The notes under the pieces are model-generated. The model was not told the DNA's origin and ran no database searches. It saw nothing but the letters and a program-made list of their open reading frames with translations. Both the position numbers and the translations under genes were made by a program. Below, one piece after another: positions 25-47,362 of a stretch of 64,000 nt of DNA. This DNA comes from Salinisphaera shabanensis E1L3A. GTDB lineage: Bacteria > Pseudomonadota > Gammaproteobacteria > Nevskiales > Salinisphaeraceae. How positions within the stretch are numbered: the first letter of the stretch is position 1; each line of letters opens with the position of its first letter. The stretch covers positions 1 through 64,000 of the forward strand of contig NZ_AFNV02000005.1 in assembly GCF_000215955.2 (NCBI RefSeq). The letters run 5' to 3'.

Positions 25-99
25 GTATAATGCCCAAGCTCAGTTGCCGGCCGAAGCGCGCCAGCGCTTTGGGTGGTCAACTGCAGCGAACTGTTAGCT
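25..99 (-). repeat. attC site 1
   Basis: Outer boxes are GTATAAT (one base off the usual AAC) and GTTAGCT. The body has the family arms CTCAGTTGCC and GGTCAACTGCAGCG around a short hairpin. It follows the gene at 94-432, whose TAA stop lies inside the right box. Confidence 0.85.
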
Positions 100-432
100 T
101 TCACTCGGCCCGTTTTCGAAGCTCGTCAGCACCTCGTTTAGATAAGCTTGGCGATACAGTTCAAAGCGCTCCGACGAGAAAGCTTCTCTTGGGGCTGGGA
201 AGTCCAAGGCCTGCAGGCGTCCGAGTTCGGCAACAAGCATGGACTCAGATTCCAGAAATGTTCTGCCATGCAGATAGTTATAAACGTAAAACTTCGCTAG
301 ATGGTCATCATGAACATGCTTATACGAAGGGTTATCCTTTAACTTGGCTCTCACTTCCCGGAGATAGCGTTCGGCATCTTCCGCTCTACGCAAGAACCCT
401 CGGGATATCGATTCTTTATCGTACTTTTTCAT
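94..432 (-). CDS. Cassette-encoded hypothetical protein
   Basis: 112 residues, starting MKKYDKES. I chose this ATG because it lies 3 bases from the attC 2 box; an upstream in-frame ATG would fall inside attC 2. The protein is hydrophilic, charged and probably helical, with no signal peptide or membrane segment and no catalytic motif that I recognise. Its stop codon is inside attC 1, so gene and site form one cassette. Function unknown. Confidence 0.7.
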   Translation of the reverse strand: MKKYDKESISRGFLRRAEDAERYLREVRAKLKDNPSYKHVHDDHLAKFYVYNYLHGRTFLESESMLVAELGRLQALDFPAPREAFSSERFELYRQAYLNEVLTSFENGPSES

Positions 433-435
433 GAT

Positions 436-522
436 AGCTAACGCCAACCATGAGGGCCGCATTTGGAGTGGAGCGCGAAGCGCGTAGCGGAAAATGCGTC
501 CCTCTCCATGGTTTTGTTGGGT
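436..522 (-). repeat. attC site 2 (divergent type)
   Basis: Outer boxes AGCTAAC and GTTGGGT. The arms CCAACCATGAGGG and CCCTCTCCATGG are complementary, but the body is unrelated to the main attC family of the array. The cassette at 524-1522 therefore probably came from a different source. Confidence 0.75.
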
Positions 523-523
523 G

Positions 524-1522
524 TCATTTTATATGAGCCTCATCTTTGGTTAGCTCGTACTGAATTACCTGAATTTGAAGCTCGCTCAGTGAGGCTTCTA
601 TATCTGGCGGGATATTCGCTGGGCTTGGTAGGACGAGATGCCTTCGTGCGCTAAAACCACATGAGTGAACAACTAATTGGCCGATTGCCGTGTACAGGTC
701 AGAGCGGCTACTACTGGTTTTTACTTCGTATAACTCAGATAAAATTCCACCTACCTCTAATCCAAGGTCAATCTGTACATTTTTTACAAAGCGCGATTTT
801 TCGTTTAAGCGCTTTTTCTCCCTCCATAATTTCAGTGCCTCAACTACTTCGCCGTGGCGTGAAAGGTAGTCGATTTTCGACTTCCTGCGCCCTTTCCTAC
901 GTCCGAATGACTCTGCATAGTAGTCTTCAAACGCACTCAGCTTTCGTTGAAAGTCAGCGGTGGATATCTCGCCGTTTCGGACGGCTATCTTAAACTCGAC
1001 AATGCTTTCAATATATTGAATGGCTGAGCGAGTTGCGTTTACTCCATTAATGGGCATAACTACAACGCCAAAGCGCTGATTACCTTCTGAGTCCATAGCG
1101 GGAGCCAATGTGTGGTTGCTCCATGCTAAAAATGCGGATTTACCAACGCCTTTGGTACCGCCACCAACCCGACCCGAGTGCATTAGATAAACTTGGCCGT
1201 CATCTGGGTTACGGGCGAAATAACCAGATACCTGTCTATTTGCACCAGAAAACGGCGTGTTGATCTCTACTGAAATTTGCAACCCGCCAGCTGCCTCGTA
1301 TACACCGAACCAGTTTAGTTGACGGGGATTTGGCGTTTCTTCCTTAAGTTTGCTGCTCCAGAACCAGTACTCACCGTTCGTATAAACCTTGGCATCGTAA
1401 GTTGTACCGCCTGGATAGCCTATGTTTCTGACATCAGGCCTAACGAGGCTCTTCTGGACAGTTGCTTTGAGAGTGGCGTGTGCCTCAGATATTTCTTGCT
1501 TTTTTTCAAGAAGGATAAACAT
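524..1522 (-). CDS. Probable PD-(D/E)XK nuclease-like cassette protein
   Basis: 332 residues. Near the C terminus a hydrophobic strand leads into ELYEVKTSSS and then YTAIGQL. The E-x-K pair followed by a helix carrying GQL is the layout of PD-(D/E)XK nucleases, including many restriction enzymes. The middle holds a Gly-rich SGRVGGGTKGVGKSAF stretch and a basic linker (GRRKGRRKSK), which would suit nucleic-acid binding. No signal peptide or membrane segment is seen. It has no methyltransferase partner in the array, so a modification-dependent or stand-alone defence nuclease is a reasonable guess. The fold assignment rests on motif reading only. The ATG at 1522 is about 30 bases from attC 3. 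Confidence 0.6.
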   Translation of the reverse strand: MFILLEKKQEISEAHATLKATVQKSLVRPDVRNIGYPGGTTYDAKVYTNGEYWFWSSKLKEETPNPRQLNWFGVYEAAGGLQISVEINTPFSGANRQVSGYFARNPDDGQVYLMHSGRVGGGTKGVGKSAFLAWSNHTLAPAMDSEGNQRFGVVVMPINGVNATRSAIQYIESIVEFKIAVRNGEISTADFQRKLSAFEDYYAESFGRRKGRRKSKIDYLSRHGEVVEALKLWREKKRLNEKSRFVKNVQIDLGLEVGGILSELYEVKTSSSRSDLYTAIGQLVVHSCGFSARRHLVLPSPANIPPDIEASLSELQIQVIQYELTKDEAHIK

Positions 1523-1551
1523 TCAGGCACTCCACATAGTCTGGCTCTGAT

Positions 1552-1654
1552 ACCCAACGCCGAAGCTCAGTTGCCGCCGGAGCGGCCGCAGGCCGCGGAG
1601 GGAACCCAAAACGCGGCAGCGTTTTGGGCGGTAAACTGCAGCGCTATGTTAGAT
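1552..1654 (-). repeat. attC site 3
   Basis: Outer boxes ACCCAAC and GTTAGAT, with the family arms GCTCAGTTGCC and GGTAAACTGCAGCG and inner stem-loops rich in GGCCGC. It separates the cassettes at 524-1522 and 1671-1904. Confidence 0.9.
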
Positions 1655-1670
1655 AGCTGTGAGTTAGAAT

Positions 1671-1904
1671 TTAAGGAGTAGCTTTGCGGCGGGGTCTGTT
1701 TTTCGGGCTAGGCCCTTCGCGCTTGCAGCAGCACTTTTGTTGGCAACCGCACTCAGGACAAGTGCATACCCACAAACAATTGGGTAACCCCTCGGGACGC
1801 CCTGGACTAACGCAATTCTCCAGGTAGAGCCTCGTGCCGCAGTCAGGGCAAGCTGGCTCATTCCCTTCAACCTTGTCACAGTCTGGAACAGCTTTTGAGC
1901 CCAT
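1671..1904 (-). CDS. Small Cys-rich (zinc-ribbon-like) cassette protein
   Basis: 77 residues with two cysteine knuckles, CPDCG near residue 19 and CTCPECGCQQKCCC near residues 48-61, followed by a basic tail. This is the look of a small zinc-ribbon protein, probably cytoplasmic. The ATG at 1904 is preceded by AGGGGAAA about 6 bases upstream and by attC 4. A longer overlapping frame (1664-1978) runs into attC 4 and is less convincing. Function unknown. Confidence 0.65.
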   Translation of the reverse strand: MGSKAVPDCDKVEGNEPACPDCGTRLYLENCVSPGRPEGLPNCLWVCTCPECGCQQKCCCKREGPSPKNRPRRKATP

Positions 1905-1920
1905 TCGAATTTTCCCCTAT

Positions 1921-2023
1921 ATCTAACGCCTAAGCTCAGTTGCCGCCGGAGGGGCCGCAGGCCACGGAGGGAACCCAAAGCGCGGCAGCGCTTCGGGCGG
2001 TCAACTGCAGCGTATCGTTAGGC
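1921..2023 (-). repeat. attC site 4
   Basis: Best-preserved site of the array: outer boxes ATCTAAC and GTTAGGC, arms GCTCAGTTGCC and GGTCAACTGCAGCG. It terminates the two-gene cassette 2023-2760; the stop codon of the 53-residue gene begins in the outer box. Confidence 0.92.
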
Positions 2024-2184
2024 TATCGCTTGTTTTTGTCGTTATCTGTGACAAATTTTCTTCGACGCGATCTTTCATCGCTTTCAGTCACAATTCTTCG
2101 CTGCCTTGATTCGTCAGGGATCTTCGGCTCAGGAACTTTTGGAGCGGGCTTTTCACCGTTATTATTGCCATCCGATTCGGCCAT
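2023..2184 (-). CDS. 53-residue highly charged cassette protein, coupled to the upstream gene
   Basis: Starts MAESDGNNNGEKPAPKVPEP and ends at TAG inside the attC 4 box. The protein is hydrophilic, with a Pro/Lys-rich first half and an Arg/Glu/Asp-rich second half, and is likely disordered. A very strong ribosome-binding site (AGGAGGAAG) sits 3 bases before the ATG and overlaps the end of the 188-residue membrane protein gene, so the two are translationally coupled. The reading frame fills the whole space between that gene and attC 4, which argues that it is real. No homology is recognised. Confidence 0.7.
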   Translation of the reverse strand: MAESDGNNNGEKPAPKVPEPKIPDESRQRRIVTESDERSRRRKFVTDNDKNKR

Positions 2185-2193
2185 ATCTTCCTC

Positions 2194-2760
2194 CTACGCT
2201 GTTACGACTTTGATGAAATAGATCGAGCACGAAAAACAAGCAACTACAAAAGAGCCGATCAACAGCCAACTCACGAAGCGAAGCAATTTAGCGCGCTTGA
2301 GGTTAGTGTTGCTCCCGTAGTCTACAGCCCTATCAATCTCCTCAATAAGGCTAGTCAAAGTATTTGCGTGAATTGTTTCACACTCATCTTTTAATGATTT
2401 GTAAGCGTCGTGCGCAAGAATACGCCAACCAGGGCCAATCTTTAGATAGCCCCTTCTACCCGGCAGGGCATACAAGCACAACCCAAAGGCTGCAGCAGAA
2501 AGTAGAACTGATAAAACAAATAGCAATATTGAACATGGCCCCGGAGAAGTCTCGACATTGCTATAGATGAAACTGTAGCTGGTAAAAAATGCCCCTAGCA
2601 AGGCGGCAGCTACCCACAGATACGTTCTTGCCACCATTATTTGATGGCGGTTGATATCGATATGCTGAGACCAATACTCTTTTGAGGCTTCATCGAGGAT
2701 ATTCGACAGTGAGGCCGAATATTGCTCGTAATCGTAGTAAGGCTTTTTTTCGTCGTTCAT
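2194..2760 (-). CDS. Cassette-encoded membrane protein
   Basis: 188 residues with a charged N terminus, then hydrophobic segments near residues 45-67 and 76-98, a soluble stretch, and a third segment near 162-186. The middle region (about residues 105-155) is predicted helical and acidic. It is the first gene of a two-gene cassette; the next start (2184) lies 10 bases beyond its stop. The layout resembles SLATT-type small membrane proteins found near defence genes, but I cannot confirm this. Confidence 0.65.
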   Translation of the reverse strand: MNDEKKPYYDYEQYSASLSNILDEASKEYWSQHIDINRHQIMVARTYLWVAAALLGAFFTSYSFIYSNVETSPGPCSILLFVLSVLLSAAAFGLCLYALPGRRGYLKIGPGWRILAHDAYKSLKDECETIHANTLTSLIEEIDRAVDYGSNTNLKRAKLLRFVSWLLIGSFVVACFSCSIYFIKVVTA

Positions 2761-2766
2761 TATTTC

Positions 2767-2865
2767 GCCTAACGCCGAAGCTCAGTTGCCGCCGGAGCGC
2801 GAAGCGCGGAGGGAACCCAAAGCGCGATAGCGATTTGGGCGGTCAACTGCAGCGATTCGTTATGC
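2767..2865 (-). repeat. attC site 5
   Basis: Outer boxes GCCTAAC and GTTATGC with the family arms GCTCAGTTGCC / GGTCAACTGCAGCG. Separates the cassettes 2194-2760 and 2867-3133. Confidence 0.88.
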
Positions 2866-2866
2866 A

Positions 2867-3133
2867 CTAGTAGCGCGCGAACCACGTAGGTGCGTTTACT
2901 CTTGAGTCATACGATTCATCGCAAACGAAACCTACAAATTCGCTGGCAGCCTCGTGCGCCGACTTACCTCGCGGAATACGCTCCGCCGCGTAAAACGCAT
3001 CGTCCATATTTATTAAGGTTCCAGTAGCAGAAAAGATATGCCTCTTCTCTTTCGCGTCGTCCTCTAGAATCCTATTGATCGCGTGGTTGATAAGCGCCGT
3101 TTGAACCTCGGTGACGAACTGAAATTTTTCCAA
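2867..3133 (-). CDS. Cassette-encoded hypothetical protein (TTG start likely)
   Basis: About 88 residues if it starts at the TTG at 3133 (LEKFQFVTEVQ). The frame stays open further upstream only by running into attC 6 (another TTG at 3175). A purine-rich GGGGGAGAAATGG lies some 15 bases upstream. An ATG in another frame right after that motif is closed after 25 codons, so the start is uncertain. Soluble, no motif recognised. The stop codon abuts attC 5. Confidence 0.55.
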   Translation of the reverse strand: MEKFQFVTEVQTALINHAINRILEDDAKEKRHIFSATGTLINMDDAFYAAERIPRGKSAHEAASEFVGFVCDESYDSRVNAPTWFARY

Positions 3134-3162
3134 GAAAACTCTGCTTCCATTTCTCCCCCTGT

Positions 3163-3265
3163 GTATAACGCCCAAGCTCAGTTGCCGCCGGAGCGGCCGA
3201 AGGCCGCGGAGGGAACCCGAAACGCGCCAGCGCTTTGGGCGGTCAACTGCAGCGATTTGTTAGAG
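3163..3265 (-). repeat. attC site 6
   Basis: Outer boxes GTATAAC and GTTAGAG (last base atypical), with the family arms and a GCGCCAGCGC inner region. Separates the cassettes 2867-3133 and 3268-3507. Confidence 0.88.
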
Positions 3266-3267
3266 CT

Positions 3268-3507
3268 TCAATTTTTCTTTTGCTGTGCGAAGACTAGAAG
3301 TTTCCAGCGGATCGGCCCACTTCCCGCGGAATGTTGGTGGTGATTCTGGGGAGGGAAAGGATTCCCCTTATTTGATGCGATCTCATCGCCACATACTTTG
3401 CATCGGTAAATGCCCGAGTTGTTGCATGTATCGCCCGGGCTGTATTCAGCGTCGTATTCGTCACTATTCCCTTTTGAAAGATAGCTTCCGTATTTGTATT
3501 GAGCCAT
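3268..3507 (-). CDS. Small cassette protein with a SGxYxCxxCG...KGxxFPP motif
   Basis: 79 residues. The core reads PGDTCNNSGIYRCKVCG, then ASNKGNPFPP, a His-rich NHHQH and a C-terminal Trp-Lys-Leu strand. Small proteins with a PG...SGxYxC..C..KG..FPP layout are common in integron arrays and probably bind a metal through the CxxC pair and nearby His residues. The ATG at 3507 has AGGGAGGAAGTG just upstream; a preceding in-frame GTG is less likely. Function unknown. Confidence 0.65.
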   Translation of the reverse strand: MAQYKYGSYLSKGNSDEYDAEYSPGDTCNNSGIYRCKVCGDEIASNKGNPFPPQNHHQHSAGSGPIRWKLLVFAQQKKN

Positions 3508-3530
3508 CACTTCCTCCCTCGTTTATACAT

Positions 3531-3608
3531 CTCTAACGCCCGCAATAAGCGGCGCGAGGAACGAGCGTCCGGCGACCGCAGGGAGCGAACTTAATTGCTT
3601 TGTTAGCT
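3531..3608 (-). repeat. attC site 7 (short, divergent type)
   Basis: Outer boxes CTCTAAC and GTTAGCT with the arms GCCCGCAATAAG and CTTAATTGC around a GC-rich core. At 78 bases it differs from the main family, so the cassette 3609-3980 has a separate origin. Confidence 0.8.
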
Positions 3609-3980
3609 TTAATTGACCCGAACACTGAGAGAAATCCCTTTATTTGAAAGAACACTGTTCTGGTCTGCTTCGCTTATAAATGGCGTGTTGCATGGATTAT
3701 GAACATATTTGATTGAATCCTGTGGATCTACTTGCGAAAGATATTTTTTAATAAGCTCGATAGCCGCATCAAAATTATCCATAGCAGAGTCGCTTGCTGG
3801 CTTTGTGCTGTACACCCAGCTACCTGACGGGCTTGAAACACTATCAAGAATGGTTACTTCTGAGTCAAAGCCGCTATCATTCTTGTATATGTCGATGGTG
3901 CAACGACGCCCATTGGTTGTCGCGACATCAATGTCATGGACGTCGCGAAACGGCCCGATAGAAATAACGGTGGTTGCCAT
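3609..3980 (-). CDS. Cassette-encoded hypothetical protein
   Basis: 123 residues, starting MATTVISIGP, with a good ribosome-binding site (AAGGAGAT) 8 bases upstream. It appears to be an alpha/beta soluble protein with no signal peptide, membrane segment or recognised catalytic motif. Its stop abuts attC 7 and its start follows attC 8, so it is a complete cassette. Codon usage is clearly AT-richer than the chromosomal genes to the right. Confidence 0.7.
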   Translation of the reverse strand: MATTVISIGPFRDVHDIDVATTNGRRCTIDIYKNDSGFDSEVTILDSVSSPSGSWVYSTKPASDSAMDNFDAAIELIKKYLSQVDPQDSIKYVHNPCNTPFISEADQNSVLSNKGISLSVRVN

Positions 3981-4002
3981 ACTGCTGATCTCCTTCTTGT
4001 AA

Positions 4003-4077
4003 AGCTAACGCCGAAGCTCAGTTGCCGACCGAAGCGCGGCAGCGCTTTGGGCGGTCAACTGCAGCGATTCGTTGGGC
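4003..4077 (-). repeat. attC site 8
   Basis: Outer boxes AGCTAAC and GTTGGGC; arms GCTCAGTTGCC and GGTCAACTGCAGCG. It is a shorter version of the main family, similar in length to attC 1. Confidence 0.88.
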
Positions 4078-15509: not shown

Positions 15510-17014
15510 GCGATCACACTTCCACAGCGAGCCCGGCCAATACCGACTACACCGGCCGGCCGAGCGACGTGCCCAAGCCCAGCCCGCGGTTGTACAACAA
15601 CGACCTCGCCCCCGTGCAGCGTGATTTTCGCCCCTGGGGCGCCTATAGCGTGTTTACGCTCTGGGCAAACGATGTGCATAGCCTGGGCAACTACACCTTC
15701 GCGATCGGGCTGTTCGCGCTGGGCCTGGGCGCCTGGCAAATCATGACCACCATGCTCATTGGCGCGATCGTGCTGTTCGGCATGCTCACGCTCTCCGGCT
15801 TTGTCGGCGAGCGTACGGGCGTGCCCTTTCCGGTGATGAGCCGTATCGCCTTTGGTATCCACGGCGGGCGTATTGCCGCCATTGCCCGCGGCGCCGTGGC
15901 CATCGTGTGGTTCGGTATTCAGACATTTCTGGCCGCGGAAGTGCTCAACGTGGTGCTGGTGACGATCGCGCCCGGGCTGGCCTCACTGGAACAGACCCAG
16001 GTACTGGGTCTGTCGTTGCTCGGGTGGATATCGTTTTCGGCCCTGTGGCTGTTGCAGGTGGTGATCGTGAGCTATGGCATGGCCATGGTGCGCCGTTATG
16101 TATCGCTGGCCGGGCCGGTGATTCTCACCACCATGGCGCTGCTGGCGATCTGGGTGCTCGCCCAGGCCAACTTCACCATGGCGTGGTCGATCGATGAGCC
16201 GCTTACCGGTGCCGCGATGTGGCAGAAGATCTTCGCCGGCGCGGGCCTGTGGGTGGTCATCTATGCCACCTTCGCCCTGAATTTCAGCGACTTCACCCGC
16301 TGTGCCAAGAGCCGGCGCGCGATCGTGGTGGGCAACCTGGCCGGTATTCCGCTCAACATGATGCTGTTCGCAGCGATCGTGGTCGTGCTCGCCGGCGCCC
16401 AGTTTCAAATCGACGGCCAAATCATCCAGAGCCCGGCGGATATTGTGAGCAGCATGGCCCAGCCCTGGCTGCAGATCCCGGCCAGTTTGGCGCTGATCGT
16501 GCTCACCGTGGCGGTCAATCTCGTGGCCAACTTCGTGGCCCCGATCTATACCCTGGCCGATATCGCCCCGCGCGCGCTCAACTTCAAACGCGCTGGCGTG
16601 ATCAGCGCGGTGCTGGGCGCGGTGATTCTGCCCTGGAACCTCTACAACAGCCCGCTGGTGATCGAGTATTTCTTGGGCGGGCTGGGTGCTGTGCTCGGGC
16701 CGCTCTTCGGCGTGATCATGGCCGACTACTGGCTGCTGCGCCGCGAGCGCGTGAATGTGCCGGACCTCTACAGCGAACGCCCGGACGGCGACTACCACTA
16801 CACCGGCGGCGTCCATCGGCGCGCTTTCGCCGCGCTGATCCCGGCTGCCATCGTCGGCGTGGTGATCGCCCTCGTGCCCGCGTTTGAAAGCGTGGCCGGT
16901 TTTTCGTGGTTCTTCGGCGCGGCAATCGCGGCCGTGCTGTATCTGCTGATCGTACCGCGCGGCCAGCGCTTCAACGACGTGAGCGGCGCGGGCATTTCGC
17001 GCCCCGGTATCTGA
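15506..17014 (+). CDS. NCS1-family permease (probable allantoin/purine-related uptake)
   Basis: 502 residues with about twelve hydrophobic segments. NNDLAPVQRDFRPWGAYSVF and LWANDVHSLGNYTFAIGL are the NCS1 signature, and NFVAPIYTLADIAPR follows in a later segment. NCS1 proteins import nucleobases, hydantoins or allantoin by cation symport across the inner membrane. Position right after allA points to allantoin or a related ureide. Its stop codon is the left boundary of the structured repeat 17012-17293. Confidence 0.88.
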   Translation: MSDHTSTASPANTDYTGRPSDVPKPSPRLYNNDLAPVQRDFRPWGAYSVFTLWANDVHSLGNYTFAIGLFALGLGAWQIMTTMLIGAIVLFGMLTLSGFVGERTGVPFPVMSRIAFGIHGGRIAAIARGAVAIVWFGIQTFLAAEVLNVVLVTIAPGLASLEQTQVLGLSLLGWISFSALWLLQVVIVSYGMAMVRRYVSLAGPVILTTMALLAIWVLAQANFTMAWSIDEPLTGAAMWQKIFAGAGLWVVIYATFALNFSDFTRCAKSRRAIVVGNLAGIPLNMMLFAAIVVVLAGAQFQIDGQIIQSPADIVSSMAQPWLQIPASLALIVLTVAVNLVANFVAPIYTLADIAPRALNFKRAGVISAVLGAVILPWNLYNSPLVIEYFLGGLGAVLGPLFGVIMADYWLLRRERVNVPDLYSERPDGDYHYTGGVHRRAFAALIPAAIVGVVIALVPAFESVAGFSWFFGAAIAAVLYLLIVPRGQRFNDVSGAGISRPGI

Positions 17015-17293
17015 GGAACCTCTGATCTATTCATGCACGGTCGCGCCGGAGTCTTTTGCGCGCGACCAACGAGCATCCGCGAGCCGCAGTTTGCTGATTG
17101 CAAATAAACAAGAATGCGCGCCGCTCAGGCGCGCGCAAAAGCCCTGCCGCAGGGCGGTTTGGCCCAAAAGGCCCCGCTACGGCGTTGCATGGCTTGGTCA
17201 TAGAATGGCTATGACGCGGCGCCATGCGCCTTGTATCGAGGCCTTTTGGGACACAAACGCGAACCGTGTATGAACAGATCAGAGGCTCCCTAA
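17012..17293. repeat. Structured ~282-bp intergenic element, copy 1
   Basis: Terminal arms 17018-17041 and 17263-17286 are complementary over about 22 of 24 positions. Inside are the nested stem GCATGGC (17187) / GCCATGC (17221) with the inner stem GTCATAG (17197) / CTATGAC (17209), and the hairpin GCCCTGCCGCAGGGC. A second copy, in opposite orientation, lies at 46708-46990; shared blocks include GGTCGCGCCGG, TCAGGCGCGCGCAAA, CGCCTTGT and CGAACGCGAACCG. No reading frame of note, so it is a MITE-like or structured-RNA element. Confidence 0.75.
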
Positions 17294-46597: not shown

Positions 46598-46684
46598 CGG
46601 GGTACGCTGTCACCGGTTAACGTTGGCGTTCTATGCAACCACGACGCGCACAGCAGGACGGTGATAGCTGGGGCGAGCGGCTGG

Positions 46685-46710
46685 CTGGCGCTGCCGCCAG
46701 TCTGTTCTTT
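46685..46710 (+). terminator. Possible terminator of the liv operon
   Basis: CTGGCG-CTGC-CGCCAG followed by TCTGTTCTTT, about 90 bases after livM. Confidence 0.45.
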
Positions 46711-46990
46711 GAGGAATCTCTGCACCACCTCTCGCGGTTCGCGTTCGAGTCCTAAAATGCGTTGCGACAAGGCGTCCGAGCGCAGCGCCTGCCTTATTGG
46801 CAGGTCAAGCTCGGCAACGCAGTCGCGGCGAATTTTAGGCCGAACCCCTTCGGGGCCGGGTCTTTGCGCGCGCCTGATCGGCGTCGAGGCAGACGCACCG
46901 TGCAACCAGCACGCTACGCCCGCCTCTCCTTGCCAGCCACGCGCAAAGCACGCCGGCGCGACCTCGACAGGTGGTGAAGAGATTCCTTAG
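46708..46990. repeat. Structured ~282-bp intergenic element, copy 2 (inverted relative to copy 1)
   Basis: Terminal arms GGAATCTCTGCACCACCT (from about 46713) and AGGTGGTGAAGAGATTCC (to about 46987) pair almost perfectly but differ in sequence from the arms of copy 1 beyond the outer GGAAYCTCT. Inner stems CCGAGC (46776) / GCTCGG (46809) and CCTGCC (46788) / GGCAGG (46799) occupy the positions of the GCATGGC and GTCATAG stems of copy 1, with different bases. Conserved blocks are shared with copy 1 on the opposite strand. No gene inside. Confidence 0.75.
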
Positions 46991-47362
46991 CGTGCCGACG
47001 GCGGCGTTCATCTGGTTTGCGCTCAACAAGCGGCTGGCGCTTCACAGCCTGCCATTCATCGAAGGGCCGGTCGGCGGGGGGATGGCTTGTTGCAGCCATC
47101 GTCTTTCTCGCCTGCTTCGCTTTCGTTTTTCCGCGGCGTTTCACCCGTTTTCTTGGGGGCGTATGGCACGGGCTGCATCGCATCATCAATCTTTGGTGGT
47201 AGTTCCGCGGCTTCGCGTTCTGGTGCCCTCGCCGAGACGTCTTGGTCTTGGAGTTCGTCCTGCTTGCAGCAAGGGGACTAATCGAACTCGTGAGTGCGGA
47301 AAGACCCGCGTCCCGAAACCAAAGCCCCGACAAACTCGTGAGTGCCAACAGCCCGAGCGCAA
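46991..47362. other. Intergenic stretch, unassigned
   Basis: A Lys/Arg-rich open frame (46914-47348, minus) overlaps the repeat and has no recognised homology. A minus-strand frame beginning with MQPVPYAPKKTGETP has better composition but no upstream start. AACTCGTGAGTGC is repeated directly at 47285 and 47333. I see nothing that I can name. Confidence 0.35.

Follow-up and report, generated by a model that had tools for sequence, protein, structure and literature searches.

What keeps a fold intact in a short DNA element whose sequence is otherwise free to change is the question raised by two segments, here W1 and W2, of the 64,000-nucleotide stretch of the Salinisphaera shabanensis contig analysed here (the window). 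The earlier note had seen that both segments stay complementary to themselves where they differ from each other and had offered two readings, a structured RNA, or mobile DNA that is processed as a folded single strand. Both copies belong to one family of ~275-bp elements. W1 (275 bp, plus strand) occupies positions 17015..17289 and W2 (274 bp, minus strand) positions 46713..46986, and the bounds first proposed (17012-17293 and 46708-46990) were thus correct to within the target duplication. The architecture of each copy consists of a closing terminal stem, a hairpin arm A, a small middle hairpin, and a hairpin arm B. In W1, the terminal inverted repeats, or outer arms (about 17015-17042 and 17258-17289), enclose arm A (17048..17144, motif-sense on the plus strand; helices 2-4 of alignment A3), the middle hairpin (17148..17156, plus strand; helix 5), and arm B (17165..17248, motif-sense on the minus strand; helices 6-9), the latter holding the stems GCATGGC/GCCATGC and GTCATAG/CTATGAC. 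The corresponding parts of W2 are arm A (46858..46954, minus strand; helices 2-4), the middle hairpin (46846..46854, minus strand; helix 5), and arm B (46753..46837, motif-sense on the plus strand; helices 6-9) with the stems CCGAGC/GCTCGG and CCTGCC/GGCAGG.

All self-complementary stem pairs quoted earlier are present in the copies, and two of the three sequence blocks described as shared, GGTCGCGCCGG and TCAGGCGCGCGCAAA, occur in both; the third, CGAACGCGAACCG, is exact in the lower copy only, the upper one reading CAAACGCGAACCG. That no gene lies inside either copy is true insofar as the ORFs found there are short, the longest being 64 and 71 codons. The description of the elements as intergenic does not extend to W2, which splits a small ORF (MQPRRAQQDGDSWGERLAGAAASLFF / SVPTAAFIWFALNKRL...) with its 5' part at 46633..46712 on the plus strand and its continuation from 46989. 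Elsewhere in the window, positions 28-4067 contain six repeat sites with attC-like ends (e.g., 1552-1654 and 1921-2023) and short minus-strand ORFs between them, and this region looks like an integron cassette array.

Several observations concern how the copies arrived. W1 is flanked by CTGA on the left (17011..17014) and CTAA on the right (17290..17293), and its ortholog in genome G003 (L128), which is 97% identical, has CTAA on the left as well. The aligned site in G001 (L364) is free of the element. W2 is absent from both G003 (L365) and G006 (L366), the target in G003 reading TTCT-TTAG-CG; the duplicated target of W2 was therefore TTAG, of which the right copy (46987..46990) is intact, while the left copy (46709..46712) has since become TTGA. 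The ORF interrupted by W2 is full-length in G003, and the ORF of G006 spans the W2 site without the element and is frameshifted further on. In the window, the part of this ORF beyond W2 (46989-47150) shifts frame near 47080 relative to the G003 homologue and looks like a pseudogene. A further record is offered by G001, from which ten fetched copies are 97.8-99.6% identical over ~273 bp at different loci. Perfect 4-bp duplications (CTAA, TTAG, TTTA, CTTA) flank eight of the ten; L066 and L069 have common flanks, so that seven of nine independent sites carry a perfect duplication, which answers the earlier call to look for flanking duplications. CTAA and TTAG fit a YTAR target, whereas TTTA and CTTA depart from it, and one G001 copy also has an element-free counterpart site. 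Among 94 elements with GGGYCTG- or GAGYCTG-type ends, TA lies on both flanks in 56, on one flank in 34, and on neither in 4. In G001 and at W2, the element has inserted into YTAR-like targets with a 4-bp duplication, and the family spreads in bursts. Its mobility, part of one of the two readings proposed at the outset, is well supported by near-identical copies at separate loci, 4-bp target duplications, and empty sites in relatives. The window copies are 274-275 bp long, contain no transposase gene, and end in terminal inverted repeats, as MITEs do; the terminal stems measured at 32 loci are 22-38 bp long.

The family reaches far beyond the window. Its genome (G000) has at least six matches to the family model, W1 and W2 included, and congeners in the 14-genome genus carry many more copies. 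L009, L006, and L010 of G000 are short remnants consisting of terminal repeats only or of a single end. Elements of equal plan with different tips are found in other families of the order: the window's group has GGAACCTCTGATC, G023 has GGGAAGCTCTGATTG, and the genus of G028 and G060 has GGGTCTGTTGACA or GGGCCTGTCATCA. Tips differ from group to group, while the interior stays conserved throughout the phylum. Following the earlier suggestion to collect copies and build a model, model R1 was built from cores without the terminal arms and detected the family in 88 of 369 genomes of the class (70 of 271 genera) at E <= 1e-4 and in 82 of 398 genomes of the phylum at E <= 1e-5, 54 of the latter lying outside the class; copy numbers per genome are lower bounds, as five or six candidates were scored at most. 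Exact matches to the apical motif stand in 84 stretches from named genomes, which include Azotobacter vinelandii, A. chroococcum, Pseudomonas, Stutzerimonas, Alcanivorax, Candidatus Thiodiazotropha, Nitrococcus, Gilvimarinus, Algicola, and Methylobacillus. One viral contig has the motif as well. With an Azotobacter copy as query, five plasmid records were retrieved, with matches on plasmids of Azotobacter, P. aeruginosa, and Halomonas; E. coli genomes gave no match. W1 had no match among plasmids, and W2 had none among phages. On the Pseudomonas aeruginosa plasmid NZ_CP017294.1 (L381, 3001-3270), an unannotated copy lies between an acyl-CoA dehydrogenase gene and a CaiB-type gene on the same strand.

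An extreme case is the symbiont Candidatus Thiodiazotropha endolucinida (G407), in which the end TAGGGCCTGTTAACA occurs 120 + 127 times with at most one mismatch and the reversed pattern not at all. Around mostly unpaired ends, 17 + 16 stretches of this genome show full elements beside internal-deletion forms (22 to about 43 bp) and solo ends. The solo ends (L232-L248, L388-L403) are cut at varied inward points, and 33-bp TAGGGCC...GGCCCTA forms stand at several loci. These deletion forms and solo ends could stem from palindrome instability or from one-ended insertion.

The claim that selection acts on base pairing was assessed by folding and by covariation. RNA folding gave z = -9.0 for W1 and -10.1 for W2, and none of 200 shuffles folded equally well. 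A total of 77 copies were extracted, of which eight (truncated, N-containing, false, or duplicate) were removed, leaving 69, or 49 after de-duplication at 95%. In alignment A3, which holds 26 of 29 chosen diverse cores, 93.9% of pair cells show standard pairing, and 43 of 56 pairs have changed on both sides. The covariation score is 0.561, compared with 0.166 (sd 0.010) for shuffled alignments and at most 0.099 for slid partners; relatedness inflates such scores, and the slid control preserves relatedness. None of 500 shuffles equalled the alignment in any of the five measures used. Together, the folding scores and the pairing relative to shuffles exclude chance. In the window's group, two-sided Watson-Crick variation is seen at 60 of 104 pairs (38 copies, near-identical ones included). 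The pairing constraint on the family, as proposed from the two window copies, is well supported.

What exactly is constrained becomes clearer from the symmetry of the element, which is an inverted dimer: within the terminal repeats, two arms carry a common apical motif on opposite strands, roughly CAAGGCG...hairpin...CAACGCC. Many arms end in GTTG...CAAC, and some have an inner purine-rich loop, e.g., GAGGAG facing GACGA. A search for the motif plus stem was positive at 36 of 38 element loci from different genomes (L376 left out), on both strands at 26 of the 38, and in none of 128 control windows taken from the same loci. The model likewise scores the two strands of many elements (e.g., L209 with 127 and 107 bits), and in some elements the second strand scores less than half of the first. 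In arm A of several G023 copies (L074-L077, L080), the sequence can be read as a purine-rich stretch, then a start codon with a 9-codon frame and a stop.

A G.T mispair in a folded strand reads as A.C in its complement, and the two can thus tell which strand is kept in the folded state. In the arm stems of the 38 loci, read in motif sense, 54 G.T stand against 6 A.C (24:4 and 30:2 by strand). Counted by genome, the ratio is 25 to 0, or 24 to 0 without L376, whose search exceeded the element bounds; the sampled genomes are not phylogenetically independent, several being related. The terminal stems, counted at the 32 of 39 loci of at least 3 kb, hold 15 G.T and 20 A.C (9 to 10 by locus). A larger set of 139 arms, with many related copies included, gave 102 G.T and 28 A.C. 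Most wobbles lie at stem positions 4-9, with T as the 5' and G as the 3' partner. When whole elements are pooled, G.T and A.C are equal or reversed (66 to 102 in f1, the window's group, and 14 to 14 in f4), f2 having 20 to 7. By part, the top-strand G.T/A.C counts are 34/22 in arm A, 11/39 in arm B, and 20/39 in the outer stem for f1; 4/0, 6/10, and 4/4 for f4; and 9/0, 7/4, and 4/3 for f2. Read in motif sense, both arms of f1 have the expected G.T excess (34:22 and 39:11). Exceptions to the rule are arm B of f2 (4:7 in motif sense) and the outer stem of f1, which leans towards A.C. The model that fetched the loci favours wobble in its own top strand, but such a bias cannot yield a motif-sense excess on both arms. 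Strand-biased mutation, on the other hand, could mimic selection for wobble. As the G.T excess is found in the arms and is missing from the terminal stems, the sequences suggest selection on the arms in the form of a folded single strand and on the ends as ordinary DNA. The two readings first offered, structured RNA and folded single-stranded DNA, both draw support from the covariation and from this strand-specific wobble, which do not choose between them.

The ends can be related to a known class of transposase. A scan of transposase loci with the tip of the window's group only (GGAA[CT]CTC) gave no matching IS. With a wider tip set, all 403 loci yielded 50 gene-sized end pairs in which 15 or more of 20 bases match. 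Three of these pairs bound PF01609 genes exactly: L148 1147-2001 in G006, L154 1074-1929 in G003, where the gene is frameshifted, and L155 1142-2001 in G001. These IS5-family elements are 855-860 bp long, have GGGCGTGTTGCCGTTTC- or GGGCCTGTTGATGTTTC-type inverted ends, and carry TA on both flanks; the L148 and L155 proteins score 267 and 249 bits with the NCBIfam IS5 model NF033580 (cut-off 110). The end pairs of L247 and L396 enclose ORFs unlike transposases by eye, and many other pairs look like chance matches in GC-rich DNA or like ends that belong to two separate elements. The L155 IS of G001 has a right tip equal, at 17 of 17 bases, to the tips of the short elements in L129 and L131, these two having partial hairpin-model matches (35 and 26 bits), and the tip of L152 in G002 has 15 of 17 bases in common with the IS of other congeners. 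A YTAR-like target with a 4-bp duplication is typical of the IS5 subgroup, and the W2 site TTAG and the G001 duplications CTAA and TTAG are of this type. With as many as 17 of 17 tip bases shared inside a single genome, IS5-type transposases probably move the GGGYCTG-ended group. PF01609 is present in five of seven genus genomes searched and absent from G000 and G009, where it may have been lost. The earlier note had named a known IS with an internal deletion as the finding that would undo its reading. Similar-ended IS5-family elements do exist, yet the hairpin model has no match above chance within the bounds of the L148, L154, and L155 elements, and the arms are therefore not a deleted remnant of those IS. 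As candidates for a universal mobiliser, IS630/Tc1-mariner and RAYT were set aside: PF13358 (DDE_3) is absent in 13 of 14 carrier genomes, and PF01797 is absent from the carrier G023, a 98% complete genome with 12 element matches. RAYT (PF01797) is the Y1 transposase that mobilises REPINs and REP elements.

If an IS5-type enzyme accounts for the ends, the arms appear to form a second module that is conserved independently. The explanation we tentatively prefer, although its probability stays somewhat below even, is a non-autonomous transposable element of two modules, with IS5-type ends and with arms that act as a folded single strand, likeliest RNA. The first module would be the terminal inverted repeats, bound as double-stranded DNA by a transposase supplied in trans, an IS5-family enzyme for at least one end group. 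The second would be the inverted pair of hairpin arms, kept across the phylum while the tips change and working as a folded single strand, most likely as RNA. With its two arms inverted, the element would present a motif-sense arm first to read-through transcription from either side, and every insertion would supply a conserved host protein that binds or processes RNA with one hairpin in the correct fold; this contact may make the insertion tolerable or the transcript stable. The lean towards RNA comes from the consideration that double-stranded transposition leaves folded single-stranded DNA without a clear use, while the dimer gives a sense hairpin either way. Against RNA, the second arm is antisense in a single transcript, yet both arms are biased, and a DNA role fits this equally well. 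Against the IS5 part, no IS was found for the tip of the window's group, and G000 and G009 lack PF01609. Stated without that choice, a phylum-wide folded module between interchangeable IS5-type ends, with one functional fold per strand that a conserved protein of the cell or of the element would recognise as RNA or single-stranded DNA, is a proposal we hold with less than even confidence.

That the arms are folded single-stranded DNA, whose hairpin a transposase or partner reads on whichever strand is exposed, as in RAYT-REP and integrase-attC, is unlikely, though by no means negligibly so. One motif-sense hairpin per strand is what would be expected if either strand were usable, the wobble bias is alike in both arms, and the stems vary with the shape kept. 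Against this stand the 4-bp duplication and the IS5-type ends, which point to double-stranded cutting for which a folded arm is not needed, as well as the lack of RAYT in G023. The IS5-family partner weighs against an enzyme that reads hairpin shape as the mover and in favour of the RNA reading. It could also be speculated that the covariation is mutational, template switching at replication perfecting imperfect palindromes by copying changes from arm to arm. The elements are indeed long quasi-palindromes, G407 has many deletion derivatives and solo ends, the terminal stems are strand-neutral, and a ~9-nt zone of the terminal repeats in group f2 (L109-L115, L046; genus of G028, G060, and G059) is copy-variable and mostly self-complementary. 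Template-switch correction may well keep the terminal repeats matched; as the source of the arms' covariation it is improbable, because a strand-symmetric process does not predict the motif-sense wobble excess on both strands and should erase internal loops, yet arm A keeps its non-Watson-Crick loop from family to family. Also improbable is the reading as ordinary MITEs of IS5-family IS with hairpin arms as passive filler. The genus has IS5-family elements with matching tips and flanks, and the size, the duplications, and the lack of long ORFs all fit a MITE. However, the interior is conserved phylum-wide despite differing tips, covaries strongly, and is foreign to those IS, which argues that it is not filler.

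A common Pseudomonadota repeat, with 247 ends in one symbiont genome alone, appears to be unnamed. The family documents compensatory change in a mobile element with deep natural sampling and allows a direct test of the selecting force: either transposition delivers an RNA hairpin, or the transposon itself needs folded single strands; the partner protein, once found, would open either question. For annotation, the element matters as it interrupts genes, can sit inside an operon-like gene row, and will inflate genome scans for structured RNAs.

Searches against Rfam 15 at the curated threshold gave no match in the window and, at 20 further loci, none that covered the arms; in L370 a cobalamin riboswitch match reaches about 20 nt into the left terminal repeat. 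Matches below the threshold were mir-3926 (24 bits, L112) and, in W1, MIR5084 (16 bits) and anti-hemB (14 bits). A literature search found no description of the element. Unnamed repeats catalogued earlier may partly coincide with it: R200 or R26 of P. fluorescens (PMC2718517) could include the element, as could the stem-loop families of P. aeruginosa and P. putida (PMC2267715).

Among known systems, MITEs (IS5-family NF033580; Correia/NEMIS, ERIC, RUP, QMITE, and P. fluorescens R0/R2) are likewise small, without a long ORF, and with terminal inverted repeats and a target duplication, and in the present family the tips of one end group match an IS in the genus. From MITEs as described in PMC2229807, PMC10969869, and PMC2718517, the family differs in having, in addition, two covarying arms with the motif on opposite strands, phylum-wide and independent of the tips; for other elements, a review describes a stem-loop that arises from pairing of the two ends. 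The CIR elements of Caulobacter and Brucella are alike in having two linker-joined arms and a phylogenetically conserved fold (PMC2229807); they are ~110 bp long with an exposed GANTC motif and are tabulated there, with a footnote, without a terminal inverted repeat. The family here differs in its ~275 bp and its closing terminal stem. REPINs and REPs are inverted hairpin pairs of high copy number moved in trans (see also PMC3116915 and PMC2817692), and REPs are 20-40 bp long (PMC3733652). The hairpin units in inverted pairs resemble the present element, with its motif on both strands at most loci, whereas its arms of ~85-100 nt, pairing outer ends, and 4-bp duplication set it apart, as does its presence in G023 without RAYT. 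Integron attC sites are hairpins with variable self-complementary stems, one strand of which is recognised by shape, and their ends read RYYYAAC...GTTRRRY. The present arms, many with their GTTG...CAAC ends, differ in that they form inverted pairs within an element that has target duplications. By its ends and insertion habits, the family is a MITE, at least one group being probably of IS5 type, and a phylum-wide, covarying, inverted hairpin module separates it from known MITEs as their descriptions present them.
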